Positions 18,140 to 34,780 of a DNA stretch of 59,885 bases are shown here, one piece after another (position 1 is the stretch's first letter; the number at the start of each line of letters is the position of its first letter). The stretch is from NCBI GenBank assembly GCA_946405105.1, contig CAMJFY010000009.1, positions 1-59,885 of the forward strand, in the 5' to 3' direction. Under the pieces are notes generated by a model that was given only the letters and a program-made list of their open reading frames with translations, did not search any database and was not told the origin of the DNA. This DNA is from an uncultured Caryophanales bacterium (GTDB taxonomy: Bacteria; Bacillota_I; Bacilli_A; Acholeplasmatales; Anaeroplasmataceae). Both the position numbers and the translations under genes were made by a program.

Positions 18140-19735
18140 TTATTCTCCCAAAGACGCTTTAACAAAAGCTTTAAATAATGGATGTACCTTATTTGGTCTT
18201 GATTTGAATTCAGGATGATATTGAACACCAATATAGAATTTATTATTTGTTAATTCTACTGCCTCAATTAATGTACCATCTGGTGACATACCTGATAATG
18301 TCATTCCATTATTGATGAAATCATCACGATATTTATTATTAAATTCATATCTATGACGATGTCTTTCACTAATGCTTTCTGAATTATATATTTCATATAG
18401 CTTTGATTTTGTATTTAATACACAAGGATAAGCACCTAATCTAAGTGTTCCACCCTTTTTAATATCATCAGATTGACCATCTAAATAATCAATAATCTTA
18501 TAGCTTGATTTATCATTAAATTCATTTGAATCAGCATCTTTTTTATTTAAAACATTTCTTGCAAATTCAATACACATAATTTGCATACCAAGACATATTC
18601 CAAAATATGGAATATTATTTAATCTTGCATATTTTGCAGTTAATATCATTCCATTTATTCCTCTTTTACCGAAACCACCTGGAACGATAATACCATTAGT
18701 ATCCTTAAATAATTCATTAACATTATCTTCAGTTATATTTTCACTATCAATCCAGTTAATATTAACTTTGCATGATAAATCATATCCTGCATGATGTAGT
18801 GCTTCTACAACTGATAAATATGCATCATGAAGCTCTACATATTTACCTACTAATGAAATATTTACTTCTTTATGTAAATTCTTTATTTTTGATACCATTT
18901 GTCTCCATTCAGTTAAATTTGAAGGGCCTGCATCAATTCTTAGCTCTCTACATACAATATCAGAGAAGCCAGAATCTTCTAGCATTAGTGGTACCTCATA
19001 TAAATTATCTAATGTATTATTCTCAATAACACAATCTTGCTTAACATCACAGAATAATGAAACCTTTTTAAAAATATTTGGATCCATTATCTTTTCATCA
19101 GTTCTTAAAATAATAATATCTGGAGTGATACCCATTCCTCTTAATTCTTTAACAGAATGCTGAACAGGCTTTGATTTATGCTCCTTTGAAGCATATAAAT
19201 ATGGAACTAGACAAACATGAATAAATAATGTATCATGTTCATCCTGTTCACGGCCTATTTGTCTAATGCTTTCAAGGAATGGTTGTGATTCAATATCACC
19301 TGTTGTTCCACCAATTTCAGTGATAACTACATCGGCATTTGTCTTCTTTCCAACCTTATAAATAAATTCCTTAATTTCATTTGTTATATTAGGAATATAT
19401 TGAACTGTTGATCCTAAATAATCACCATTTCTTTCCTTTGAAATAACATTAGAAAATACCTTTCCAGTTGTTAAATTAGAATATTTATTTAAATTTTCAT
19501 CAATAAATCTTTCATAGTGGCCTAAATCTAGATCTGTTTCTGCCCCATCTTCAGTGACGAAGACCTCTCCATGCTGATATGGTGACATAGTTCCTGGATC
19601 AACATTAATATATGGGTCTAGCTTTTGAGCAGCGACCTTTAAGCCTCTAGATTTTAATAATCTTCCTAAGGATGCAGCAGTTATACCCTTTCCGAGTCCT
19701 GATACTACTCCTCCTGTTACAAATATATATTTCAT
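18140..19735 (-). CDS. pyrG: CTP synthase (glutamine-hydrolysing)
   Basis: It aminates UTP to CTP using glutamine and ATP. The 531-residue protein has the synthetase domain ([20 protein letters not shown] at the start; [20 protein letters not shown]) and a class I glutaminase domain with the nucleophile in [11 protein letters not shown] (about 376) and the His-Glu pair in GVQYHPEF. Its ATG overlaps the stop of the ANTAR regulator (ATGA). As a glutamine user, it fits the nitrogen operon. Confidence 0.98.
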
Positions 19736-20316
19736 TTTGCCCTCTTATAGTTTGAAATAATTTCTTGTGCTACATAAGCCTTTGTTTTTCTAATAAACAT
19801 TGCTCTCTTTTCGATATGCTTATGTGCCTCATCCTCACTCATATGTAAGTTTTTAATTAATAATAATTTTGCATTATTAATTAGTTTTATCTCTTCTAGC
19901 CTATCTTTAATATCTATTGGCTTAGTTTCTCTCATTCTCTCCCTAGATAATGAAGCCTCTAATAATTTCATTGATTGAATTATTATTTGACTTGATGTTG
20001 GTCTTGGAAGTGTTAATATTCCATAATCATATGTTTTATCATAAACCTCGTTATATAATTCATTCTTTACAAATAATAAAATTCCCATTTTATATTTATA
20101 TTCAGAATCAATAGCGAAATTAATTCCAAATTCATCAGGCAATGGAGAGCTTATAATCATCAAATCATAATCATTATCAATTAGCTCTCTTCTTGCCTCA
20201 CTAATAGATTCAACAACCTTGATTGGGTCGTTTTTATCTTTTAATAGGTGAATGATTGTGTCTGAAAAGCTATTTTTTCTAGCTACAATTAATAAGCTAT
20301 TAACTTTTTCTTTCAC
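19732..20316 (-). CDS. ANTAR-domain RNA-binding regulator with pseudo-receiver
   Basis: ANTAR proteins bind hairpin RNAs and block transcription terminators. The C-terminal third (about 135-190) matches the ANTAR pattern: [19 protein letters not shown], then [18 protein letters not shown]. The N-terminal part (about 5-115) has a receiver-like fold, but the acidic pocket is missing (LLIVARKN) and the phosphoacceptor position in [14 protein letters not shown] is Ser. It is therefore probably controlled by a partner or ligand, not by phosphorylation. A longer frame begins at TTG, but the ribosome site AAGGTGAG favours the GTG at 20316. It sits between glnA and pyrG in the operon whose leader is a plausible target, with a matching leader in front of glnN. 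Confidence 0.88.
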
Positions 20317-20344
20317 AATCTCACCTTCTTTCAAATATTGTTAA

Positions 20345-21584: not shown

Positions 21585-23021
21585 TTAATTAGTATACTTA
21601 TCAATAATTTGTTGTGCACAATCGATACCATCTTTAATAGCTATAACTACTAAAGATTGACCATTTTTCATATCTCCACAAACGGAAATTTTATCATTAT
21701 ATTTGAAATTGTTTAATTTAACTCTATTGTTAATAGAATCTAATTTATAATTGTTTAAATCTTCTGTTGTTGTACCAATGAATCCCATTGCGATAATTAA
21801 ATAATCACATGGTAAATATTCTCTAGTATTTTCAACATCTACAAGCTTCATTTTGCCGCCATCATTAACGAATTTAACTTTTTTAATATAAACACCAACT
21901 AGTTTATCGCCTTCTTTAACGACCTCATCAATTGTTGTTTCATATCTTCTAATATCATGATTCATTAATGTGTTAGCTTCTAATACACCATAGTCTGTCT
22001 TCTTTTTATTTGGATAATTAGGCCATGGTAATGTATTTTCTAGTGGTGGCTCCTTAGTTATTTCAAGCTCAGTTATAGATTTCGCTTTTTCTCTAGCTGC
22101 AGTACCACAACAGTCATTTGCGGTATCACCACCACCAACTATAATTACATTTTTATCTTTTAAATTGTATTCAAATTCTTTTCCATCTAATAAATTCTTA
22201 GTGGTCTTAGTTAAGAAATCAACTGCATAAACAATACCTTTAGCATCATTATTCTTAACCTGAAGTGGTCTTGCAAAAGATGTACCACATGCAAATACGA
22301 TTTCATCATATTTTTCATTTAGCTCATCCATTGTAATATCAACACCAATTTTAGTATTGTTAATAAATGTAATTCCTTCTTCCTTTAAAAGGTTGATTCT
22401 TCTTTCTACAATTTTCTTTTCAACCTTCATATTAGGAATACCATACATTAATAAGCCACCAAATCTATCATTCTTTTCATAAACTGTAACACTAAAGCCA
22501 TTATCATTTAGCTTTTTAGCTGCAGATAATCCTGATGGACCAGATCCAATTACACAAACCTTTTTATTATTTCTTTTAATATCCTTTTTAGGCTTAATCC
22601 AACCATTCTCATATGCCTTTTCAATAAGGAATAATTCATTTGCTCTAATAGATACTGATTCCTTATTTATACTGCATGAGCAGCATGCTTCACATAATGC
22701 AGGACATACATTACCAGTAAATTCAGGGAATGGTGCTGTTTTTTCTAATCTCTTATATGCTTCTTCAAATAATCCAAGATAGATTAAATGATTCCATTCA
22801 GGAATAAGATTAGATAATGGACAACCAACGTTTCTGTTGTTTACCTTCATTGCTGATTGGCAAAAAGGCACGCCACAGTTCATACATCTAGATGCTTGTT
22901 CCTGTTGAGTTTTTAAATCAAATGGAATGTGAAAGTCATTAAAGTTTTCGATTCTAGTTAGAACATCGATTTCTTTTTTATTCTTTCTTTCGAATTCCAT
23001 AAAACCAGTAGGCTTGCCCAT
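21585..23021 (-). CDS. gltD: Glutamate synthase small subunit (NAD(P)H-dependent)
   Basis: GltD feeds electrons from NAD(P)H through FAD and Fe-S clusters to GltB. The 478-residue protein shows the Cys-rich N terminus (RCMNCGVPFCQ; CPALCEACCSCSI), an FAD-binding GSGPSGLSAAKKL (about 158) and an NAD(P)H-binding VGGGDTANDC (about 293). Its ATG overlaps the last base of the gltB stop (TAATG), and GGGGTGA is the ribosome site, indicating translational coupling. Confidence 0.97.
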   Translation of the reverse strand: MGKPTGFMEFERKNKKEIDVLTRIENFNDFHIPFDLKTQQEQASRCMNCGVPFCQSAMKVNNRNVGCPLSNLIPEWNHLIYLGLFEEAYKRLEKTAPFPEFTGNVCPALCEACCSCSINKESVSIRANELFLIEKAYENGWIKPKKDIKRNNKKVCVIGSGPSGLSAAKKLNDNGFSVTVYEKNDRFGGLLMYGIPNMKVEKKIVERRINLLKEEGITFINNTKIGVDITMDELNEKYDEIVFACGTSFARPLQVKNNDAKGIVYAVDFLTKTTKNLLDGKEFEYNLKDKNVIIVGGGDTANDCCGTAAREKAKSITELEITKEPPLENTLPWPNYPNKKKTDYGVLEANTLMNHDIRRYETTIDEVVKEGDKLVGVYIKKVKFVNDGGKMKLVDVENTREYLPCDYLIIAMGFIGTTTEDLNNYKLDSINNRVKLNNFKYNDKISVCGDMKNGQSLVVIAIKDGIDCAQQIIDKYTN

Positions 23022-26000
23022 TATTTCACCCCCGTAAACTTATTAAATGCATATAATTCTTCATCTAATACACCTAAAGATTTTGCTTCTTCTATGTATG
23101 ATAGAATCTTTGCATAATCATTAGGTAATACCTTAAAGTAATCCTTAGAATCGAAATTATATAATAAATTAGATACATATTCGCTATTTGTATATTTAAC
23201 GTGGTTAGCTAATAATTCTTTAATAGTCTTAATATCATTATCATCAATATCTAATACTGATACTAATTCTTTATTAATGTTTTTCTTGTTCATAGGTCCA
23301 TAAATATATGCAACACCACCAGACATACCAGCAGCAAAATTTCTACCTATCTTTCCAAGTAAAACAACTACACCACCAGTCATATATTCACAGCCATGTA
23401 GACCACAGCCTAGTGCTACTACCTTAGCACCTGAATTTCTGATAGCGAATCTTTCACCACAAATACCATCTAGGTATACCTCTCCTGAAGTAGCACCATA
23501 AAGTGCAACGTTACCACAAATGATATTCTTTTCAGGTGCGAATGTTGCCTTATCTGATGATTTAACAATTATCTTTCCACCACATAATCCTTTTCCTAAA
23601 TAATCATTTGCATCTCCTGTGACATCTAGTGTTACACCACTAGTTAGGAATGCACCAAATGAGTTACCTGCGTTACCTTTAGCATTAATGATGATTGTAT
23701 CTTCCTTTAGACCTTTATCCTTATATACTTTAGTTATTTCATTAGATAAGATTGTTCCTAAAGATCTATTAACATTAGATATTTCAATATCCATTCTCTT
23801 TACATGACCATATTTAATAGATTCTTCACATAAAGGAAGTAACATTCTACAGTCTAATGTATTATTTAAATCTATCTTCTTATATTCTTTGAATATATTG
23901 TCATGTCTATTAACAACCTTAGCATTGAATAAAAGCTTAGAAACATCTAATCTATCCTTATATTCATCCTTAAGTGATAATAATTCAGTATGACCAACCA
24001 TTTCATCAATAGTTCTAAATCCTAATTTAGCCATATATTCACGTAATTCTTGAGCAATAAACCTCATGAAATTAATAACATATTCAGGCTTACCCTTAAA
24101 ATTCTTACGTAAATTTGCATCTTGAGTTGCAACACCTACAGGACATGTGTTCATGTTACAAACTCTCATCATAATACAACCCATTGCGATTAATGGTCCT
24201 GTAGCAAAACCAAATTCTTCTGCACCTAAAAGAATAGCTACTGCTAAATCCTTACCAGTTAAAAGCTTACCATCAGTTTCAAGTCTAATTCTATCTCTTA
24301 AACCATTTAATACTAATGTTTGGTGAGTCTCAGATAGGCCAATTTCCCAAGGAATACCTGCGTTAGAAATTGATGTTCTAGGTGAAGCACCTGTACCACC
24401 ATCATAACCTGAAATTAAGATTGTATTAGCACCAGCCTTAACTACACCAGCAGCAATTGTACCAACACCTGATTCAGATACTAATTTAACAGAGATTCTT
24501 GCTTCTCTATTAGCATTCTTTAAATCATAAATTAATTGAGCTAAATCCTCAATTGAATAAATATCATGATGTGGTGGAGGTGATATTAATGAAACACCAG
24601 GAGTTGAATGTCTTGCCTTAGCAATCCAAGGGAATACCTTTTGTCCTGGAAGTTGTCCTCCTTCACCTGGCTTAGCACCTTGTGCCATCTTAATTTGAAT
24701 TTCAATTGCGTTTGTTAAATATTCAATAGTTACACCAAATCTACCAGATGCTACCTGCTTAATCTTTGAGCATCTATCTGTTCCATATCTAGCTCTTTCT
24801 TCTCCACCCTCACCAGTGTTAGATTTACCACCTAGAGTGTTCATTGCGATAGCCATACATTCATGTGCCTCTTTAGATATTGAACCGTAGCTCATTGCAC
24901 CAGTTTTAAATCTCTTAACGATTTCATCTACGCTTTCAACCTCATCAATTGAAATTGAATGAGAGAAATCTAAATCTAATGTATCTCTAATATTTATTCT
25001 CTTTTTAGCTAATAAAGATGTAAAATCTTTATACATTTTATAATCATTGCTTCTACATGCTGCTTGTAATGTGAATATAGCAACTGGATCATAGATATGA
25101 TCGTGCTTATTCTTTCTATAGCCATGTAGACCCATTGAATCTAGAGTATCATCTGTTCTATTTAATGCTTTTTGATATAACTTAATTGAATTTGCTTCAA
25201 TTACATCAATATCAATACCACCAATTGAATTTGGTGTATTTGTGAAGTATTTATCAACAACCTTATCTGATAGGCCAATACATTCAAATATTTGAGCACC
25301 ATTATAAGATTGAATAGTTGAAATACCCATTTTAGAAATGATTTTTGTAATACTCTTTATAGTGGCATGTCTATAATTTTCAACAGCCTTCTTAGCATCA
25401 ATTGTGATATATCCTCTCTTAGCATATTCATCAATTGTTTCATATACTAAATAAGGATAAATAGCATTAACACCAAAACCTATTAATGCAGCAAAATGAT
25501 GAATTTCTCTTGGTTCTGCAGCCTCTAATACGATTGATACATGTGTTCTCTTTGAAACCTTAGTTAAATATTGATGTAAGCCTGAAGATACTAATAATGA
25601 AGGAATCTTTAATCCCTTAGCACCTCTATCAGTTAAGATAATAATAGATGCTCCATCATCAACCTTCTTTTCACATTCTTTAAATATTCTATCTAAGGCA
25701 TCAGCCATCTTTTCTTTTGTATAATCATATGCAAAAGATACGATATCTACTTTAATTTGATATGATTTATCAATATATTTAATCTTATTGAATTCTTCTT
25801 CAGATAGAATTGGATTATCTACTCTAATTCTTCTTGCGTTAATCTTTGTAGGATTTAATAAGTTTCCTTCTCTACCTAAATACATTAATGAAGACATTAC
25901 TATATCTTCTCTTATTGAATCAATAGGAGGGTTTGTTACTTGAGCAAATCTTTGTTTAAAGAATTGATATAAATTAAATTCTTTTTCCATTAATACTGCA

Positions 26001-27481
26001 AGAGGTAAGTCATTACCCATTGAAACTACCTTTTCAGCATCATTTTGTGCAAGTGGAATAATACCTTCCATTAATTCATCATATGTATAATTTAATTCAT
26101 GTTGAATAAAATGAATATCATCTTTGTTTGTTTCCTTATGAGCTTTTAAATCATCAATATGAATAATGTTTTCATTCCACTCCTTATAAGGAAGCTGCTT
26201 TGAATATTTCATTTTTATTTCATCGTTAGAAATAATCTTTCCAACGCTTGTATCAACTAATAAAATTTTACCTGGTTCTAGTCTCTTCTTTTCTAATATA
26301 TTATTTTCATCAATAGGAAGAGATCCTGTTTCACTAAATAAAATTAGATAATCATCTTTAGTTACATAATATCTAGATGGTCTTAAACCATTTCTATCTA
26401 GAGATGCACCAAGCTTAATACCATCTGTAAATAATACAGCTGCAGGTCCATCCCAAGGCTCTAGGAATGTTGAATGGAATTCATAGAATGCCTTTAGATT
26501 TTCATTCATTGTATTATTTTTCATCCAAGGCTCTGGAATCATCATCATAATTGTTTCTTCTAGTGTTCTACCATTTAAATATAAGAACTCTAAGAAATTA
26601 TCAAACATTGCTGAATCTGATGATTCCTTTGGAATCAATGGAATGATTTTCTTTAAATCATCATTAAATATTTCAGATTCAAATAAACCTTCTCTTGATC
26701 TAACGTTATTAACGTTACCTCTAATTGTGTTTATTTCACCATTATGACATAAATATCTATTAGGATGAGCTCTTTCCCAAGATGGGAATGTGTTAGTTGA
26801 AAATCTTGAATGTACTAAAGCAATGGCAGTTTCTACTTTTGTATCCTTTAAATCAAGATAGAAATCTCTAACTTGTGTAGATACTAACATACCCTTATAA
26901 ACAATAGTTCTTGATGATAATGAACAAAAATATAAAGTTTGTTTTTCTTTTATAGCAAGAGTTTCAATTACTCTTCTTACTACATATAGCTTTCTTTCAA
27001 AAGGTAAACCCTCTTCAATGTCTTCAGGCTTTTTAACAAATACCTGCATAATATATGGCATAGCTTTAATAGCTGTTTGACCAATACCATATGTATCTAC
27101 TGGTACTCTTCTATAACCTAAAACCTCAAGGCCTTCCTTTTTAAATGTTTCATCAATTAAAGATATTTCTTTATTTCTAATATCTTCATTCTTAGATAAG
27201 AATAATTGACCAACACCATATGAACCTAGCTTTGGTAATTCAAAATCAAGCTTTTCACTTCTAAAGAACTTATCAGGAACTTGAAATAATATTCCGGCAC
27301 CATCACCTGAATTATCTTCAGCACCTGTTCCACCTCTATGTTCTAGATGAATTAATATATTTAGGGCGTCTTTTATCGTCTTATGAGTCTTAATGCCTTT
27401 TATTTGAGCGATTGCACCAATACCACAAGCATCATGCTCATAGCTAGGATTATATAAGCCTACTTTCTGTTGTTCATTCAT
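23021..27481 (-). CDS. gltB: Glutamate synthase large subunit
   Basis: GltB hydrolyses glutamine and transfers ammonia to 2-oxoglutarate, giving two glutamates. The 1486 residues begin with a short propeptide before the nucleophile Cys (HDACGIGAIAQI), then the class II amidotransferase domain, central domain, FMN barrel with the 3Fe-4S ligands (MRVCNMNTCPVG) and the C-terminal GXGXG helix domain. The open frame extends upstream, but GAGGG eight bases before the ATG at 27481 and the propeptide pattern set the start. It is the first gene of a seven-gene operon preceded by a terminator-containing leader. Confidence 0.98.
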   Translation of the reverse strand: MNEQQKVGLYNPSYEHDACGIGAIAQIKGIKTHKTIKDALNILIHLEHRGGTGAEDNSGDGAGILFQVPDKFFRSEKLDFELPKLGSYGVGQLFLSKNEDIRNKEISLIDETFKKEGLEVLGYRRVPVDTYGIGQTAIKAMPYIMQVFVKKPEDIEEGLPFERKLYVVRRVIETLAIKEKQTLYFCSLSSRTIVYKGMLVSTQVRDFYLDLKDTKVETAIALVHSRFSTNTFPSWERAHPNRYLCHNGEINTIRGNVNNVRSREGLFESEIFNDDLKKIIPLIPKESSDSAMFDNFLEFLYLNGRTLEETIMMMIPEPWMKNNTMNENLKAFYEFHSTFLEPWDGPAAVLFTDGIKLGASLDRNGLRPSRYYVTKDDYLILFSETGSLPIDENNILEKKRLEPGKILLVDTSVGKIISNDEIKMKYSKQLPYKEWNENIIHIDDLKAHKETNKDDIHFIQHELNYTYDELMEGIIPLAQNDAEKVVSMGNDLPLAVLMEKEFNLYQFFKQRFAQVTNPPIDSIREDIVMSSLMYLGREGNLLNPTKINARRIRVDNPILSEEEFNKIKYIDKSYQIKVDIVSFAYDYTKEKMADALDRIFKECEKKVDDGASIIILTDRGAKGLKIPSLLVSSGLHQYLTKVSKRTHVSIVLEAAEPREIHHFAALIGFGVNAIYPYLVYETIDEYAKRGYITIDAKKAVENYRHATIKSITKIISKMGISTIQSYNGAQIFECIGLSDKVVDKYFTNTPNSIGGIDIDVIEANSIKLYQKALNRTDDTLDSMGLHGYRKNKHDHIYDPVAIFTLQAACRSNDYKMYKDFTSLLAKKRINIRDTLDLDFSHSISIDEVESVDEIVKRFKTGAMSYGSISKEAHECMAIAMNTLGGKSNTGEGGEERARYGTDRCSKIKQVASGRFGVTIEYLTNAIEIQIKMAQGAKPGEGGQLPGQKVFPWIAKARHSTPGVSLISPPPHHDIYSIEDLAQLIYDLKNANREARISVKLVSESGVGTIAAGVVKAGANTILISGYDGGTGASPRTSISNAGIPWEIGLSETHQTLVLNGLRDRIRLETDGKLLTGKDLAVAILLGAEEFGFATGPLIAMGCIMMRVCNMNTCPVGVATQDANLRKNFKGKPEYVINFMRFIAQELREYMAKLGFRTIDEMVGHTELLSLKDEYKDRLDVSKLLFNAKVVNRHDNIFKEYKKIDLNNTLDCRMLLPLCEESIKYGHVKRMDIEISNVNRSLGTILSNEITKVYKDKGLKEDTIIINAKGNAGNSFGAFLTSGVTLDVTGDANDYLGKGLCGGKIIVKSSDKATFAPEKNIICGNVALYGATSGEVYLDGICGERFAIRNSGAKVVALGCGLHGCEYMTGGVVVLLGKIGRNFAAGMSGGVAYIYGPMNKKNINKELVSVLDIDDNDIKTIKELLANHVKYTNSEYVSNLLYNFDSKDYFKVLPNDYAKILSYIEEAKSLGVLDEELYAFNKFTGVK

Positions 27482-27512: not shown

Positions 27513-27581
27513 AAAAAAAGGCATTCACCCCTATACAATGATGTCCTAAATAAACATCATAAAGGTGAACACCATTGTTCA
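27513..27581 (-). promoter_or_regulatory. gltB leader: hexaloop hairpin overlapping an intrinsic terminator (candidate ANTAR target)
   Basis: At the predicted 5' end of the transcript, TGAAC-(AAUGGU)-GUUCA (27581-27566) forms a five-pair hairpin with A at loop position 1 and G at position 4, as in known ANTAR RNA targets. Its 3' arm is also part of the terminator 5' arm GGUGUUCACC (27573-27564), which pairs with GGUGAAUGCC (27529-27520) and is followed by U7. A further hairpin, ATGATGT / ACATCAT, sits inside the terminator loop. The two structures exclude each other, so stabilising the first hairpin should permit read-through into gltB. Function is inferred. Confidence 0.7.
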
Positions 27582-27588
27582 TAAATAT

Positions 27589-27615
27589 ATTATATTTTTT
27601 TATTCGATATGTCAA
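27589..27615 (-). promoter_or_regulatory. Promoter of the gltB operon
   Basis: A perfect TTGACA (27615-27610, minus strand) precedes TATAAT (27594-27589) by 15 bases, or TAATAT two bases further by 17. Initiation is expected near 27582. Confidence 0.8.
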
Positions 27616-27708
27616 CAAAAAATAAAATAAAATTCGTGAAAAAACTTTTTTTCATAAATAAAATTTAAATTTTAGCCAAAAAATTGATAAAAAAATTCAA
27701 AAAAAGTG

Positions 27709-27737
27709 TTGACACACTAATTTTTTAGAATTACAAT
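27709..27737 (+). promoter_or_regulatory. Promoter of glnN
   Basis: TTGACA (27709-27714) and TACAAT (27732-27737) are separated by 17 bases, with A-tracts upstream. Initiation is expected near 27744. Confidence 0.85.
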
Positions 27738-27748
27738 AGAAGCATACA

Positions 27749-27794
27749 AGGCAAGGATGCCTAGGGTAAAAACCTAGAGTCCCTGCCTTTTTTT
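27749..27794 (+). promoter_or_regulatory. glnN leader: hexaloop hairpin overlapping an intrinsic terminator (candidate ANTAR target)
   Basis: AGGC-(AAGGAU)-GCCU (27749-27762) is a hairpin with the A1/G4 hexaloop, about five bases from the predicted transcript start. The terminator uses GGCAAGGA (27750-27757) and UCCCUGCC (27780-27787; one A-C mismatch), followed by U7; CUAGG / CCUAG forms inside it. The hairpin and terminator share eight bases and cannot coexist. The layout mirrors the gltB leader on the opposite strand. Function is inferred. Confidence 0.7.
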
Positions 27795-27809
27795 GTTTAA
27801 GGAGGATAT

Positions 27810-29897
27810 ATGAAACAGGTAAATGATTATTTTGGATGTCTTGTATTTAATGATGAAGTAATGAAATCTAGATTATCTTCTGATATATATAAGTCATTAA
27901 AGAAAACAATTAATGATGGTTGTGAACTTGACATCAGCGTTGCTAACAGTGTTGCAGTAGCAATGAAAGACTGGGCAATCGAAAATGGCTGTACACATTA
28001 CACTCACTGGTTCCAACCAATGACAGGTATTACAGCTGAAAAGCATGATAGCTTCATTTCACCAGATGGTGATGGAAAAATTATCATGGAATTCAAAGGA
28101 AAAGAGTTAGTAAAGGGTGAGCCTGATGCTTCTTCATTCCCATCTGGAGGATTAAGAGCAACATGTGAAGCTAGAGGATATACAGCTTGGGATCCAACAA
28201 GCTATGCCTTTATTAAGGATAAGGTATTATGTATTCCTACAGCATTCTGCTCATATGGTGGTGAGGCACTAGATAAGAAGACTCCACTTCTTAGATCTAT
28301 GCAAGCTATCAATAAAGAAACATTAAGAATATTAAAATTATTTGGTCATACAGATGTTACTTCTGTTAAAACAACAGTTGGACCTGAACAGGAATATTTC
28401 TTAGTAGATAAGGAATATTATGATCAAAGACCTGACTTAATTTATACAGGTAGAACATTATTCGGTGCAATGCCTCCTAAGGGACAGGAACTTGAGGATC
28501 ATTACTTTGGTGTAATTAAACCTAGAGTACAGGCATTCATGAATGATTTAAATGAAGAGTTATGGAAATTAGGCATTCTAGCTAAGACAGAGCATAATGA
28601 GGTTGCTCCTGCACAGCATGAATTAGCACCTATCTTTGCAACAACAAATATTGCTGCAGATAATAACCAATTAACAATGGAGATTATGCAAAAGGTTGCT
28701 AAGAAGCATAATTTAGTTTGCTTATTACATGAAAAACCATTCAAGGGAGTAAACGGATCAGGTAAACATAATAACTGGTCTATATCAACAAATACCGGCC
28801 TAAATCTATTAGAACCAGGTGCTACACCACTTCAAAATGCACAGTTCTTATTATTCCTAGTTGCAGTAATTAAAGCTGTAGATGAATATCAGGATTTATT
28901 AAGAATAAGTGTTGCAAGTGCTGGAAACGACTTCCGTTTAGGAGCAAACGAGGCACCTCCTGCAATCATCTCAATGTTTGTTGGTTCTGAATTACAAGAT
29001 GTCTTAGATTCAATTGAAACAGGTAAACCATTAAATACAAAGGGAACAAAATTCTTAAAGATTGGTGCTGACGTATTACCTGATTTACCAAAGGACTCTA
29101 CAGATAGAAACAGAACTTCTCCTTTCGCATTTACAGGAAACAAGTTCGAATTTAGAGCACTTGGTTCTTCTGAATCAATTTCTTGTGCAAACATCATGTT
29201 AAATACAGCTGTTGCTGAAGTATTAAGAGAATTTGCAGATCAATTAGAAAAATCTAAAGATTTCAACAATGACTTACATGATTTAATTAAAGATACAATC
29301 ATTAAACATAAGAGAATTATCTTCAATGGTAATGGTTATGATGAGTCATGGGTTAAAGAAGCTGAAGCAAGAGGCTTATTAAATTTAAAATCTACACCAG
29401 AGGCATTACCTCATTACTTAGATAAGAAAAATGTTAAGTTATTTACTTCTCATGGTGTATATACAGAAGCTGAAATTAATGCAAGATATGAAATTGCTCA
29501 AGAGCATTACATTAAGATTGTAAATATTGAAGCATTAACAGCTTTAAATATGACAAATAAATATTATTTACCTGCTATTAGTAAATATAGTGCTAAGCTA
29601 GCTAAAGTCGTAAATGAAAAAGCAAGCTTACAAATTGATGCAGTTTATGAAAAAGATATGTTAAAGAAGCTATCTGATGGCTTAAACAAGGCATATGTAA
29701 TTAAAAATGAATTAGAAACTGCATTAGCTAAGAAAGATGATATTAAGAAAGCATCTGATGAATCTATTTATTTAAAAGAAAATGTATTAACTAAGATGGA
29801 GGCTCTAAGAGATGTAATTGATTCTCTTGAAGAAATTACTTCTGAAGAAGCATGGCCATTCCCATCTTATGGAAAACTATTATTCGGTGTAAGATAA
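27810..29897 (+). CDS. glnN: Glutamine synthetase, type III
   Basis: GSIII is a large dodecameric glutamine synthetase found in Bacteroidetes, cyanobacteria and some Bacillota. The 695 residues match [25 protein letters not shown] (about 62-81), [30 protein letters not shown] with metal Glu, [15 protein letters not shown], and [18 protein letters not shown] lies four to five bases before ATG. It is the first gene of the rightward unit and faces the operon carrying a second, type I enzyme. Confidence 0.98.
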
Positions 29898-29923
29898 TAA
29901 AATAATTTTTGGAGGGGATTATT

Positions 29924-31726
29924 ATGGAAATCGTAAATGGTTGGGATTACCAAATATGGAAGCTAATTGCAATTGCTTTAATCTTCTTCATGCAAGCAGG
30001 ATTTGCAATGTGTGAAGCAGGTTTCACAAGATCAAAAAATACTGGTAATATCACAATGAAAAACTTAATGGACTTCTGTTTAGGTACAGTAACATTTATC
30101 TTAATTGGTGGTCCATTACTATGTGCAGAAAATGCAATCGCCGGTGGTCTATTTGGCGATGCAGTCCAAGTATGGAAAGGTATGTTCGGAAAAGAAGCCT
30201 CATTATATAACTGGACTGATTTCATATTTAACTTAGTATTCTGTGCTACTACTGCTACAATCGTATCAGGAGCTATGGCAGAACGTACAAACTTTAAAGC
30301 TTATTGTATTTATTCAATGATTATTTCAGCTGTTGTATATCCAGTTGAAGCTTATTGGAACTGGGGTGTTGGAAACCAAGGTTGGTTACAACAATTAGCT
30401 GCATCTTGGGGCTTAGCTGATGGTTATGCTCAAGGATTCATTGATTTATCTGGTTCTTGTTCAATTCATATGGTTGGTGGTTTAACTGCATTAATCGGTG
30501 CTTGGATGGTAGGTCCAAGAATTGGTAAGTATACTAGAGATGAAAATGGTAAGGTTGTTAAAATTAACGCTATTCAAGGTCACAATGTATTAATTGGTGC
30601 TCTTGGTGTATTCATTCTATGGTTTGGTTGGTATGGATTCAACCCAGCTGCTTGTACAACATGGGATGGATATGAAGGTATGGGTCAAGTATTCATGACT
30701 ACTACTATTGCAGCATCACTTGCTACAGTAACAGTAATGATGATTACATGGATCAAAAATGGAAAACCAGATGTCTCAATGACATTAAATGGTTCACTTG
30801 CAGGTCTAGTAGCTATTACTGCTGGTTGTGCAAGAGTTGATTTAGTTGGTTCTGTATTTATTGGTATCGTTGCCGGTGTAATTCTATGCGTTGGTGTTGA
30901 ATTCTTCGATAAGGTTTGCCATATCGATGACCCAGTAGGTGCTTGTTCAGTACACTTCTTAAATGGTGTTTGGGGAACAATCGCTTGTGGTTTATTCTCA
31001 ACAACTACAGGATTATTCTATGGTCATGGCTTCGCACAATTAGGAATCCAAGTAATTGGTGTATTAGCAGTATGCGCTTGGACAGCTGCTTGGGCATTCT
31101 TAATCTTTGGTGTAATGAAGCTAATCAAGAGAAAAGATGGTGTAACTCCATTCTTAAGAGCTACTCCTGAAGAAGAAATTAAAGGTCTTGATATTTCTGA
31201 ACATGGTTTATTATCAGCATATCCAGACTTCGTAGCACAAGTTGAATCAATTGATTATAGCGGTGCTATGGTAGTTACAGGTGATGCTCCAATGGCTGAG
31301 GCTGTTGAGGTAGCTCACTTAAGTAAAAATGATGCAGTTGTTCCTGAAGCTTCAGGTGCTAAGGGCGATTATAAATTTACAAAGGTTGAAATCATTTGTA
31401 AAGAAAGAATGCTTGATTCATTAAAGGATGCAATGCTAAATCTTGGAATAAATGGTATGACAGTTACTCACGTACTTGGTTGTGGACAACAAAAGGGTAA
31501 GCCTGAATATTACCGTGGTGTTCAAATTGAAGCTACACTTCTACCTAAGATTCAAGTAGATATGGTTATTTCTAAGGTTCCAGTAAGAGATGTTATTGAA
31601 ACTGCTAAGAAGACATTATATACAGGTCACATCGGCGATGGTAAGATCTTCGTATACGATGTAGAAAATGTAATCAAGGTTAGAACTGGTGAAGAAGGCT
31701 ACGCCGCTTTACAAGACGAAGAATAA
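29924..31726 (+). CDS. amt: Ammonium transporter fused to a PII nitrogen-sensor domain
   Basis: Residues about 1-405 are an Amt/Rh ammonium channel (11 helices) with the conserved Asp of FIDLSGSCSIH and the twin pore histidines in SIHMVGG and SVHFLNGVWG. A linker contains the usual GLDISEHG Amt tail. Residues about 483-600 are a complete PII protein: NLGINGMTVTHVLGCGQQKG, the T-loop PEYYRGVQIEA, TGHIGDGKIFV and KVRTGEE. In E. coli numbering Gln39, Tyr46, Lys58 and Lys90 are kept, but the uridylylated Tyr51 is Ile. The transporter thus carries its own GlnK-like gate. GGAGGGG precedes the ATG at 29924; an upstream ATG frame lacks a ribosome site. Confidence 0.95.
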   Translation: MEIVNGWDYQIWKLIAIALIFFMQAGFAMCEAGFTRSKNTGNITMKNLMDFCLGTVTFILIGGPLLCAENAIAGGLFGDAVQVWKGMFGKEASLYNWTDFIFNLVFCATTATIVSGAMAERTNFKAYCIYSMIISAVVYPVEAYWNWGVGNQGWLQQLAASWGLADGYAQGFIDLSGSCSIHMVGGLTALIGAWMVGPRIGKYTRDENGKVVKINAIQGHNVLIGALGVFILWFGWYGFNPAACTTWDGYEGMGQVFMTTTIAASLATVTVMMITWIKNGKPDVSMTLNGSLAGLVAITAGCARVDLVGSVFIGIVAGVILCVGVEFFDKVCHIDDPVGACSVHFLNGVWGTIACGLFSTTTGLFYGHGFAQLGIQVIGVLAVCAWTAAWAFLIFGVMKLIKRKDGVTPFLRATPEEEIKGLDISEHGLLSAYPDFVAQVESIDYSGAMVVTGDAPMAEAVEVAHLSKNDAVVPEASGAKGDYKFTKVEIICKERMLDSLKDAMLNLGINGMTVTHVLGCGQQKGKPEYYRGVQIEATLLPKIQVDMVISKVPVRDVIETAKKTLYTGHIGDGKIFVYDVENVIKVRTGEEGYAALQDEE

Positions 31727-31775: not shown

Positions 31776-33356
31776 ATGTGTGCAATAATAGGATATTTAA
31801 GCTTAGAAAATTATGAACTATTATTAGAAAATTTTGATAAGGTAACATCTAGAGGACCTGATAAATGTGAAATAAAAAAGTTTTCTAATGCTGTATTAGG
31901 ATTCAAGAGATTATCAATAATGGGTATTGATGATTCGGGAATGCAACCATTTAATTACAAGGATTATACAATTGTATGTAATGGTGAAATATATGGCTTT
32001 AGAAAAATCAAAAAGGATTTAGAAGATAAAGGATATAAATTTAACAGCAATTCAGATTGTGAAATACTTCTTCCCTTATATGAATTATATGGAACAGATA
32101 TGTTTAGCAAGCTAGATGCAGAATTTGCATGCATAATTTATGATTCTAAAACAAAAGATTTTATTGCCGCTAGAGATCCTATTGGTATTAGACCACTATA
32201 TTATGGATATGATAAAGATAATAAAATTATCTTTGCATCAGAACCTAAATGCTTAGTAGATATAGCACAAAGAATTTATCCATTCCCACCAGGATATTAT
32301 TATAAAGATAATAAATTTGTTTGTTATACAGATATTACTAAAGTAGATTCTTATGTAAATGATGATCTTGAAACAATTGCTAAATCAATCCATGATAAGC
32401 TAGTTGAAGGTGTAAATAAGAGATTAGATTCAGATGTTAAGGTTGGATATTTATTATCTGGAGGACTAGATTCTTCTCTTGTTTGTGCTATCGCAGCTAA
32501 AACATTAAATAAGAAAATAGATACATTTTCTATTGGTATGTCTACAGACGCAATAGATTTAAAATATGCAAAACAGGTAAGTGATTATATTAATTCAAAT
32601 CACCATGAAATTATTATTACTAAAGATGATGTATTAAATGCTTTAGAAGATGTAATTGAAATATTAGCAACATTTGATATTACTACTATCAGAGCTTCTA
32701 TTGGTATGTATTTATTATGTAAAGCAATACATGAACAAACTGATATTAGAGTTTTATTAACTGGTGAAATATCAGATGAATTATTTGGATATAAATATAC
32801 AGATTTCGCTCCTAATGCTGAAGAATTCCAAAAAGAATCTATTAAGAGAGTTAAGGAATTACATATGTATGATGTATTAAGAGCTGATAGATGTATTTCT
32901 TCTAATTCATTAGAAGCTAGAGTACCATTTGGTGATCTAGATTTTGTTAAATATGTATTATCAATTAATCCAATTAAGAAAATGAATACCTATAATATGG
33001 GTAAATATTTATTAAGACATGCGTTTGAAGAAGATAAAATCTTACCAGAAAATATCTTAATGCGTGAAAAGGCAGCATTCTCTGATGCTGTTGGACATTC
33101 AATGGTAGATTATTTAAAGGAATATGCAAACAACAAATATACTGATGAAGAATTTGAACTTCTATCATGTAAATATACTCACGCAAAACCATTTACAAAG
33201 GAATCATTATTATATAGAGAAATATTTGAAAAATATTATCCTGAACAAAGTCAAATGATTGTTGATTTCTGGATGCCTAATAAAAATTGGGAAAACTGTA
33301 ATGTAAATGATCCTTCTGCAAGAGTATTAAAAAATTATGGAAATAGTGGTAAGTAG
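31776..33356 (+). CDS. asnB: Asparagine synthetase B (glutamine-hydrolysing)
   Basis: It converts aspartate and glutamine to asparagine and glutamate with ATP. The 526-residue protein starts MCAIIGYL, giving the Ntn nucleophile Cys after Met removal. It has RGPDKCE, VCNGEIYG and ARDPIGIRPLYYG in the glutaminase domain and the PP-loop LLSGGLDSSLV (about 228-238) in the synthetase domain, followed by LLTGEISDELFGY. The length matches bacterial AsnB. The ribosome site AAAGGGA is nine bases from ATG. It lies two bases before purF. Confidence 0.96.
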   Translation: MCAIIGYLSLENYELLLENFDKVTSRGPDKCEIKKFSNAVLGFKRLSIMGIDDSGMQPFNYKDYTIVCNGEIYGFRKIKKDLEDKGYKFNSNSDCEILLPLYELYGTDMFSKLDAEFACIIYDSKTKDFIAARDPIGIRPLYYGYDKDNKIIFASEPKCLVDIAQRIYPFPPGYYYKDNKFVCYTDITKVDSYVNDDLETIAKSIHDKLVEGVNKRLDSDVKVGYLLSGGLDSSLVCAIAAKTLNKKIDTFSIGMSTDAIDLKYAKQVSDYINSNHHEIIITKDDVLNALEDVIEILATFDITTIRASIGMYLLCKAIHEQTDIRVLLTGEISDELFGYKYTDFAPNAEEFQKESIKRVKELHMYDVLRADRCISSNSLEARVPFGDLDFVKYVLSINPIKKMNTYNMGKYLLRHAFEEDKILPENILMREKAAFSDAVGHSMVDYLKEYANNKYTDEEFELLSCKYTHAKPFTKESLLYREIFEKYYPEQSQMIVDFWMPNKNWENCNVNDPSARVLKNYGNSGK

Positions 33357-33358
33357 GA

Positions 33359-34780
33359 ATGTTTGATAGTATTCATGAGGAATGTGGTGTTTTTGGCATT
33401 TATGAGCCAAAACAAACAGATGTTGGAAATTTAACATATTTAGGCTTATATGCTTTACAGCATAGAGGCCAAGAATCATGTGGTATTGTTGTTTGTGATG
33501 ATGGAATATTTAGACAACATAAAGGAATCGGCCTAGTTGGTGAAGTATTCTCAAAAAATGATTTAGATGAATTAGGAACAGCAAATATGGCAGTAGGCCA
33601 TGTTAGATATTCTACTACTGGCGTTAATAATGAAAATAATATACAGCCACTTGTAGTAAGACATATTAAGGGAAATCTAGCATTAGCACATAATGGAAAT
33701 TTAACTAATGCAGATGAATTAAGAGAAAAATTCGAGCTTAATGGTGCTATTTTTAGAGCGACATCAGATACTGAAGATATTGCATATCAAATCGTCGCTG
33801 AAAGATTAAAAGCTAAATCTATCGAGGAAGCTATTAAAAAGGCAATGAAAAAGATAAAAGGTGCTTATTCTTGTGTCGCAATGTCTTCTCAAAAGCTTGT
33901 AGCATTTAGAGATGTTAATGGTTTTAGGCCATTAATATTAGGTAAAACAAAAACAGGAGGCTATGTTGTAGCTTCTGAATCTTGTGCAATAGATGCGATT
34001 GATGGTGAAGTAATTAGAGATATAAAGCCAGGTGAAATCTTAACAATTTCAAAAGAAGGAATTAAATCTGATTTCGTACCTTCAAGTACTTCTTCACTTT
34101 GCGTTTTTGAATTTATTTATTTTGCAAGACCAGATTCAGTTATTGAAGGTTCTTCTGTTCATCAAGCAAGAATAAATGCAGGTAAGATTTTAGCAAAAGA
34201 ATCTCCTGTTGATGCTGATGTTGTTATTGGTGTACCTGATTCGGGCTTAGATGCTGCACTTGGTTATTCAATGGAATCTAAAATACCATATGGTATTGGA
34301 TTTGTTAAGAATAAATATATTGGAAGAAGCTTTATTAAGCCTACTCAAAAAGAACGTAGTGCTGCCGTTAAAATAAAATTAAATGTAATTAAAGAAACAA
34401 TAAAAGATAAAAGAGTTATTTTAATTGATGATTCCATCGTTAGAGGAACAACATCACAAAGAATAATAAAGCTATTAAAGGATAATGGTGCTAAGGAAGT
34501 ACATATGCGTATTTCTTCTCCTGCCTTTAAATTCCCTTGCTATTTTGGAACAGATATTGATTCAAAAGAAAACTTAATCGCATGTAAATATGATACCAAT
34601 GAAGAAATTGCAAAGGAAATATGTGCTGATTCATTAGCATATTTATCAATTAAAGGAGCACATATGCTTGCAACAAATTCTAAATGTGGATTCTGTGATG
34701 GCTGCTTCTCAGGAAAATATCCAATTAAAACTCCTACTATTACAAATAAAAATAAATTTGAAGAAAAAATCAACAAATAA
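33359..34780 (+). CDS. purF: Amidophosphoribosyltransferase
   Basis: It commits PRPP to purine synthesis using glutamine. The 473-residue protein has a short propeptide (MFDSIHEE) before the nucleophile in ECGVFGIYE, an intact GHVRYSTTG, AHNGNLTNA, the flexible loop YIGRSFIKPTQKERSA and the PRPP site LIDDSIVRGTTS. Four Cys at the Bacillus-type Fe-S ligand positions are present (LCVFEF, FPCYFG, FCDGC). It starts two bases after asnB, so it is coupled to it. It is the catalytically complete counterpart of the paralog at the window start. Confidence 0.97.
   Translation: MFDSIHEECGVFGIYEPKQTDVGNLTYLGLYALQHRGQESCGIVVCDDGIFRQHKGIGLVGEVFSKNDLDELGTANMAVGHVRYSTTGVNNENNIQPLVVRHIKGNLALAHNGNLTNADELREKFELNGAIFRATSDTEDIAYQIVAERLKAKSIEEAIKKAMKKIKGAYSCVAMSSQKLVAFRDVNGFRPLILGKTKTGGYVVASESCAIDAIDGEVIRDIKPGEILTISKEGIKSDFVPSSTSSLCVFEFIYFARPDSVIEGSSVHQARINAGKILAKESPVDADVVIGVPDSGLDAALGYSMESKIPYGIGFVKNKYIGRSFIKPTQKERSAAVKIKLNVIKETIKDKRVILIDDSIVRGTTSQRIIKLLKDNGAKEVHMRISSPAFKFPCYFGTDIDSKENLIACKYDTNEEIAKEICADSLAYLSIKGAHMLATNSKCGFCDGCFSGKYPIKTPTITNKNKFEEKINK

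Follow-up and report, generated by a model that had tools for sequence, protein, structure and literature searches.

Introduction

The target of ANTAR proteins has been described as two hexaloop hairpins with A at position 1 and G at position 4 of the loop (A1 and G4), both of which are needed for induction of eutP (Ramesh et al. 2012, PMC3369931). Antitermination by EutV in vivo requires both hexaloops, and the predicted ANTAR targets include glutamate and glutamine synthase genes (PMC3369931). Walshe et al. (2022, PMC8934654) reported that the EutV dimer contacts one hexaloop and redefined the minimal site as one hexaloop. In the parts of that paper cited here, two hexaloops are retained for antitermination, the role of single sites is left open by the authors, and single sites are expected where no transcribing polymerase sets the pace. 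The actinobacterial ANTAR survey looked for dual stem-loops (PMC8164766). An ANTAR gene is found in a cluster of glutamine synthetase (GS) and glutamate synthase (GOGAT) genes in C. thermocellum, and nitR is mentioned in the same paper (PMC4676874). ANTAR control of GS/GOGAT genes is already known in kind. Among the openly available papers found on ANTAR antitermination, no title or abstract describes a single-hexaloop terminator leader.

The two leaders and the proposed circuit

Two divergent gene strings, each with its own leader, are present in the window, which is the whole stretch of 59,885 nt that was analysed (Table 1). The plus-strand string runs glnN, Amt-PII fusion, asnB and purF, and the ammonium transporter and the P-II domain are joined in one protein. 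The minus-strand string runs gltB, gltD, a GS-like gene, the ANTAR gene, pyrG, dapF and the gene for LL-diaminopimelate aminotransferase. Each string is predicted to form one transcript, judging from gene order and spacing.

Table 1. Features of the glnN and gltB strings in the window.
Feature	Position	Strand	Comment
gltB promoter, TTGACA-17-TAATAT	27615-27587	-	predicted +1 ~27580
gltB leader hexaloop hairpin, GAAC-AAUGGU-GUUC	27580-27567	-	proposed ANTAR site and antiterminator
gltB leader terminator	27513..27573; stem 27573-27520, U7 27519-27513	-	hairpin loop and 3' arm shared
gltB ATG	27481	-	
glnN promoter, TTGACA-17-TACAAT	27709-27737	+	predicted +1 ~27744
glnN leader hexaloop hairpin, GGC-AAGGAU-GCC	27750-27761	+	proposed ANTAR site and antiterminator
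glnN leader terminator	27748..27794; stem region 27748-27789, U7 27788-27794	+	hairpin 5' arm and loop shared
glnN ATG	27810	+	
glnN, type III glutamine synthetase	27810..29897	+	PF12437
Amt-PII fusion (ammonium transporter, C-terminal P-II domain)	29909..31726	+	
asnB	31776..33356	+	
purF	33359..34780	+	
gltB, glutamate synthase large subunit	23021..27481	-	named from size, gltD adjacency and relatives (no family-library scan)
gltD, glutamate synthase small subunit	21585..23021	-	TIGR01317
Short GS-like protein, 400 aa	20345..21547	-	Met-Ala-Pro for Glu-Ala-Pro, C-terminus missing
ANTAR protein (pseudo-receiver plus ANTAR)	19732..20334	-	

An earlier note on this DNA had proposed that the two leaders share one layout, a start-proximal A1/G4 hexaloop with a U7 terminator, and this was confirmed by sequence, folding and a structural descriptor. 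The terminators fold at -25.0 kcal/mol for gltB (z -4.7) and -21.2 kcal/mol for glnN (z -3.9), and 0 of 200 shuffles were as low. Short 5' pieces of both leaders fold as the hexaloop hairpin, and the gltB piece by itself is unremarkable (z -0.2, 78 of 200 shuffles equally good). The descriptor asks for an A..G.. hexaloop closed by three or more pairs and sharing its bases with an overlapping terminator. It has two matches in the window, both of them these leaders, against a mean of 0.2 and a maximum of 1 in 40 Markov copies. Neither leader terminator was detected by a generic short-loop terminator scan, because of the long loops or the inner hairpin. The predicted starts, taken as seven bases 3' of the -10 boxes, are 164 bp apart and lie 0 nt (gltB) and 6 nt (glnN) from the hairpins, so that transcripts from these promoters have no room for another hairpin ahead. 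The earlier note had likewise allowed space for one hexaloop only. It had also made the hairpin arm the 5' arm of the terminator in both leaders; more exactly, the 5' side of the terminator consists of the loop and the hairpin's 3' arm in gltB, and of the 5' arm and the loop in glnN. The inner hairpin that it saw inside the terminator loop is present in the window and is not conserved among relatives (e.g. G021).

It is proposed that each operon is under ANTAR antitermination through its single start-proximal hexaloop hairpin, which on the comparative evidence below is probable. From a strong promoter of the sigma-70 type, RNA polymerase would make the hexaloop hairpin first. The same bases would later pair with downstream sequence to give the intrinsic terminator, and the two folds would be mutually exclusive. 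An active ANTAR dimer, the product of the gltB string, may grip one hexaloop through A1 and G4; the held hairpin would then block the terminator and allow read-through into glnN-amt/PII-asnB-purF and gltB-gltD-GS-ANTAR. With inactive ANTAR protein, transcription would stop after some 50-70 nt. Through its gltB arm the circuit would be autoregulatory.

Conservation of the leaders in relatives

By protein similarity, glnN was located in 24 of 55 genomes of the family, together with 24 gltB-like places. The upstream DNA of the 24 glnN and 19 gltB-like places was taken without motif selection, and five split-GOGAT places were added later. A hairpin with a six-base loop and at least three pairs lies just after the best promoter in 23 of the 24 glnN upstream regions, in a scan that was blind to the loop letters and required pairing. 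A1 is found in 23/23 of these loops, A2 in 22/23 and G4 in 22/23, while positions 3 and 6 take all four bases. The odd loop belongs to G019, where the script preferred a second hairpin and the promoter-proximal loop is AAAGAG. The region without a hexaloop hairpin is that of G011, a genome without an ANTAR hit. Hairpins with loops of 4, 5, 7 and 8 bases were found in 11, 3, 4 and 11 of the 24 regions, several of them being the same hairpin with one pair opened or closed.

A hexaloop leader precedes 10 of the 24 gltB-like places. Five stand before gltB itself (G000, G007, G010, G024, G026). For the other five (G002, G003, G009, G015, G033) the enzyme is split, and the leader precedes its separate amidotransferase gene. 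Nine of the other 14 places follow an apparent pyrG end, and five have no hexaloop leader within the 260 nt read. In G021 one further leader, facing glnN, stands before the short-GS gene and is counted here with the gltB type. Another site in that genome (L172, contig C97, ~3223) has a strong promoter and, immediately after it, a short terminator hairpin that contains no hexaloop; no clear gene follows, and the site is perhaps a small RNA or a decayed leader.

The hairpin stems vary across the leaders (GGC/GCC, GAAC/GUUC, AAGC/GCUU or GAGC/GCUC). Among 33 leaders, two of them dual-type, the promoters match 9-12 of 12 consensus bases, and the stem begins 6-12 nt after the -10 box in 31 and 23 nt after it in 2. 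Stem covariation gave 29 cells changed on both sides against 12.2 in shuffles, a comparison of little weight as the rows were picked by stem and loop motif. In all, A1 and G4 of the loop are kept, the stems have changed with pairing kept, and the promoter position is kept, in support of the circuit proposed in the earlier note.

Mean terminator pairing in the glnN leaders is 0.92 for the 5' arm, 0.78 for the loop and 0.53 for the 3' arm, and in the gltB leaders 0.0, 0.61 and 0.92, respectively. These means come from 41 of the 42 leaders, G012 glnN having been dropped by the T-run rule, and in three rows (G033 gltB, G036 and G488 short GS) the terminator was ended at a T-run that came too early. 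The rows of this scoring, and of the loop counts made along with it, had been selected by their loop and stem patterns, and neither is independent evidence. Since the terminator uses different arms in the two types and the hairpin is complete in each, the comparison points to selection acting on the hairpin itself, beyond the terminator alone. By script, the hexaloop hairpin excludes the intrinsic terminator in 37 of 38 single leaders, five of them with the terminator ended at a T-run past the true one; the remaining leader, that of G014, shows the pairing in other scans.

A leader with a terminator is the general layout of an attenuator, and the conserved structure could instead be read by another RNA-binding regulator or, through a leader peptide, by the ribosome, with the likeness of the loop to ANTAR targets a coincidence. 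An ATG at 27582 does open a 34-codon frame across the gltB leader in the window, but it is missing in relatives (e.g. G007, G010, G024), no conserved start codon was seen in the aligned leaders, and a leader peptide was rejected for the gltB leader as the window frame is not kept. The Rfam scan of the window gave two tRNAs and no T-box, riboswitch or other leader over the gathering score. The bases kept include A1 and G4, on which EutV depends, and the leaders co-occur with ANTAR genes as described below, so that a coincidental loop is very improbable. Control by GlnR/TnrA, for which the operator consensus is TGTNAN7TNACA, was also rejected: no match with at most one mismatch lies between 25036 and 28354, and the whole window has 39 matches against 49 expected.

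One hexaloop versus two

A model of the glnN leader plus terminator (R1) finds the glnN type, misses the gltB type and is unusable for listing the regulon. A model of promoter plus hairpin built from 31 leaders (R2) was used in its place. Within the same family, R2 picked up further leaders, those of canonical glnA genes (~450 aa). They are of the classic dual type, in which the first hexaloop lies just after the promoter and the second, mostly GCANNGNNGC, lies 14-25 nt further on and enters the terminator. In 16 of 19 dual glnA leaders the first hexaloop forms no pair with the sequence downstream.

When a second hexaloop was scored as a further A..G.. hexaloop on at least two GC pairs, it was found in 20 of 23 dual-group leaders and in 0 of 42 single-group leaders (glnN, gltB, short GS), the groups having been assigned by downstream gene and stem motif before counting and not blind. 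The dual group is made up of glnA leaders of the order (18/20), the second type of glnN in G004 and G006 (2/2) and one leader from outside the order, G199 (0/1). The three misses have explanations of their own: the loop begins with G in G013, the stem has one GC pair in G199, and the sequence is clipped in G034, where the second loop was seen in the other scan. Some single leaders ended at an early T-run in the GC-pair scan. A scan for three pairs of any make-up, which covers the entire terminator or more in 38 of the single leaders, gave the same result with a single exception, an additional inner hairpin (CUUG-AGAGAU-CAAG) of the G040 glnN leader. No second hexaloop was found within 75 nt upstream in the 59 rows scored (the 60th, G035, failed the T-run rule). 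Of the Ramesh 2012 target motif, the window leaders contain the A1/G4 hexaloop closed by three or more pairs, and the single-group leaders lack the two hairpins with a linker. They would work like ANTAR leaders, yet by sequence they fall outside the published two-hairpin motif.

Within the order, single leaders are present in families f1 and f2, and elsewhere in the class they occur in f22 and f23. Ten genomes carry both single and dual leaders. A second, distant glnN type with a classic dual leader occurs in G004 (L078) and G006 (L079), and both leader forms of glnN are found within one genus.

Could the second hexaloop be supplied by the other transcript? The face-to-face layout of the two leaders in the window recurs in relatives (e.g. 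G007, G010, G024, G026, G036, G040, G043, G288), and one ANTAR dimer might bridge the hexaloops of two divergent nascent transcripts, the two-hexaloop rule being satisfied by two RNAs. Such bridging would need both transcripts to be made at the same moment, and six genomes (G005, G008, G012, G017, G019, G023) have a glnN leader with none found on the divergent side. Binding in trans has also been judged unlikely on timing (PMC8934654), and this arrangement is very improbable. Recognition of one hexaloop within each leader remains the preferred reading.

Co-occurrence with ANTAR genes

An ANTAR hit at E<=0.001 was found in 43 of 160 genomes of the order, and 35 are convincing. Eight hits of family f3 were set aside, as they have a partial domain in proteins of ~300 aa, with seven under the cut-off and one (G041) marginal. 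The earlier note had paired the leaders with an ANTAR protein, and the genomes uphold the pairing: a leader was read in 35/35 genomes with a convincing ANTAR gene (35/43 if the f3 hits are counted as ANTAR) and found in 1/125 others, where absence means absence at R2 E<=0.02, R2 was partly built from genomes counted, and related genomes are not independent. The Fisher value for these counts is for that reason no true probability. The exception is G004, which has a dual leader with no ANTAR gene found and is 78% complete. R2 at E<=0.02 in the 160 genomes found 33 of the 35; G063 and G071 were seen in a deeper search of 40 genomes. R2 hits at this threshold in 15 ANTAR-lacking genomes besides G004 were rejected, being by eye other promoters, for example before hrcA-like and acpP-like genes.

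In a sample of 395 genomes of the class, six from outside the order were flagged by R2 at E<=0.002. In five of the six, GS or GOGAT genes are preceded by leaders, and each of these five also has an ANTAR gene. G288 and G488 each have two single leaders (the glnN one of G488 on a short stem), and G199, G224 and G376 have dual leaders. The sixth, G336, was rejected, with an arsR-like promoter, no ANTAR gene and no leader. For the genome of the window itself, the two leaders score 50.7 and 42.5 bits and the third hit 24.6 bits, among 38 matches at E<=5. The earlier note had suggested a genome search for further leaders of this form; none beyond the two was found, the two weak hits read (C29 and C17) being without a leader, in an assembly that is 91% complete and from which others may be missing.

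A tree of 42 ANTAR proteins is split at 100/100 into 20 of clade S, encoded at the glnN/gltB locus and including the window protein, and 22 of clade D, encoded elsewhere. The S-only genomes (n=13, the partial G043 gene counted as S) have a single leader in 13/13 and also a dual leader in 1 (G026, 78% complete). The D-only genomes (n=14) have a dual leader in 13 and a single leader in 4, and the genomes with both clades (n=8) have single leaders in 7 and dual leaders in 7. Six of the 10 genomes with both leader forms have both clades. The match between clade and leader type in these genomes is strong but not strict. Counting against the model, the only ANTAR found in G014, G018, G034 and G060, which have a single-type glnN leader, is of clade D, and no single leader was seen in G013, whose ANTAR proteins include one of clade S. 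A clade-D protein may read both leader forms.

Other arrangements were seen around the ANTAR genes. A clade-D ANTAR gene lies directly upstream of the dual-hexaloop glnA leader in G060 (L173) and G034 (L174). At L246 in G224, on the minus strand from ~543, a promoter is followed by an AAC-AAUGGU-GUU hairpin overlapping a terminator, and the gene after it has a start resembling clade-D ANTARs, possibly an autoregulated ANTAR leader. Six loci (L017, L018, L019, L025, L026, L029) have long-branched clade-S ANTARs whose own operon has no leader found and keep the glnN leader.

The leaders might also be structural relics, with a terminator that is constitutive or only trims expression and a non-binding hexaloop inherited from dual leaders, as the long branches and the absence of a leader found on the own operon of the diverged clade-S ANTARs (G005, G008, G012, G017, G019, G023) would allow, but this is very improbable, as the loop letters are constant while neighbouring loop positions vary freely in hairpins found without loop letters, and the single type occurs in four families.

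The ANTAR protein and the adjoining GS-like protein

As the earlier note had stated, the gltB operon encodes an ANTAR protein. It matches the ANTAR domain PF03861 with 46.2 bits against a curated cut-off of 27.3 and is the sole ANTAR protein found in its own genome (91% complete). Its predicted structure (mean pLDDT 86.9) has Rv1626, EutV (6ww6, 6wsh) and AmiR as top PDB matches. The N-terminal part has a receiver fold without the phospho-acceptor aspartate of a phosphorylation-activated response regulator. EutV has Asp54 where the alignment gives the window protein Ser, and in an alignment of 42 relatives the Asp is kept only in G040, G060 and G034. Because of this, control of the ANTAR protein by a partner protein or a ligand is more likely than control by a histidine kinase. 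Three of the seven RNA-contact residues of EutV (PMC8934654) are identical in the window protein (K143, M172, R175) and four are changed (K147 to N, R168 to E, N173 to F, R177 to T), as mapped by an alignment with an inferred offset of two. The four differences count against the single-hexaloop ANTAR model, as do the dependence of EutV antitermination on both hexaloops in vivo (PMC3369931) and the expectation that single sites belong where polymerase does not set the pace (PMC8934654).

In the short GS-like protein encoded beside the ANTAR gene, Met replaces the Glu of the Glu-Ala-Pro active-site loop, a catalytic residue of GS. Its orthologues are 346-409 aa long and lack the C-terminus, and those of G021 and G036 have lost more of the active-site motifs. 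In all six loci examined outside the diverged sub-branch (the window, G013, G015, G021, G033, G036) the gene immediately precedes that of the clade-S ANTAR protein; it is absent beside the ANTAR gene in G012, the locus examined within that sub-branch. The GS-like protein looks degenerate and, by analogy with AmiC and NasS, may be the sensor partner of the ANTAR protein. The earlier note had put two glutamine synthetases under common control; of these, probably GlnN alone is an enzyme, the other being this degenerate GS-like protein.

Comparison with known ANTAR systems

The leaders observed here are real, and their interpretation as ANTAR antitermination leaders is well supported by comparison among genomes. 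The single-hexaloop circuit of the earlier note draws its support from the retention of A1 and G4, stem pairing, promoter position, co-occurrence with ANTAR genes and the lack of a second hexaloop. Its novelty is the putative use of one promoter-proximal hexaloop for ANTAR-type antitermination; since EutV needs both hexaloops and there is one here, this would be a new variant. More tentatively, it is possible, though doubtful, that this is a minimal form with its own ANTAR clade that acts within the first ~20 nt without a recruitment hairpin, its activity being set by the degenerate GS as a nitrogen sensor, much as AmiC and NasS act on AmiR and NasT.

EutV and the eut leaders of Enterococcus faecalis resemble the window in having an A1/G4 hexaloop on a short stem overlapping an intrinsic terminator, a receiver-ANTAR protein and nitrogen-related genes. 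The eut leaders have two hexaloops, whereas each window leader has one at the predicted start that doubles as a terminator arm. NasR/nasF, AmiR/amiE (PMC3369931) and NasS-NasT (PMC3795266) are also cases of ANTAR antitermination of nitrogen-related operons. AmiR and NasT work with the ligand-binding partners AmiC and NasS, and in the window a GS-like protein is encoded by the ANTAR gene; unlike the window leaders, those of nasF and amiE are described as dual hexaloop (PMC3369931). The NitR and clostridial GS-GOGAT clusters (C. thermocellum Clo1313_2030-2036, C. acetobutylicum nitR) share with the window an ANTAR gene, glutamate synthase and a GS-annotated gene, and antitermination of ammonium assimilation has been proposed for them (PMC4676874). 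The parts of that paper cited here mention no single-hexaloop leader.

The dual glnA leaders of the same order share with the single leaders a first hexaloop just after the promoter, the loop type AANGRN and a sister ANTAR clade, and differ in the second hexaloop that enters the terminator. PAL contains an ANTAR domain. The photoreceptor NmPAL binds single small RNA hairpins and is a precedent for one-hairpin recognition, but it is controlled by light, and its aptamers governed translation in engineered circuits, in contrast to the terminator leaders of the window (PMC11381354). Single-hexaloop leaders will have escaped genome searches in which two hairpins are required. The EutV dimer binds one hexaloop yet two are needed for antitermination, and natural leaders of the single and dual forms make the need for a recruitment hairpin directly testable.
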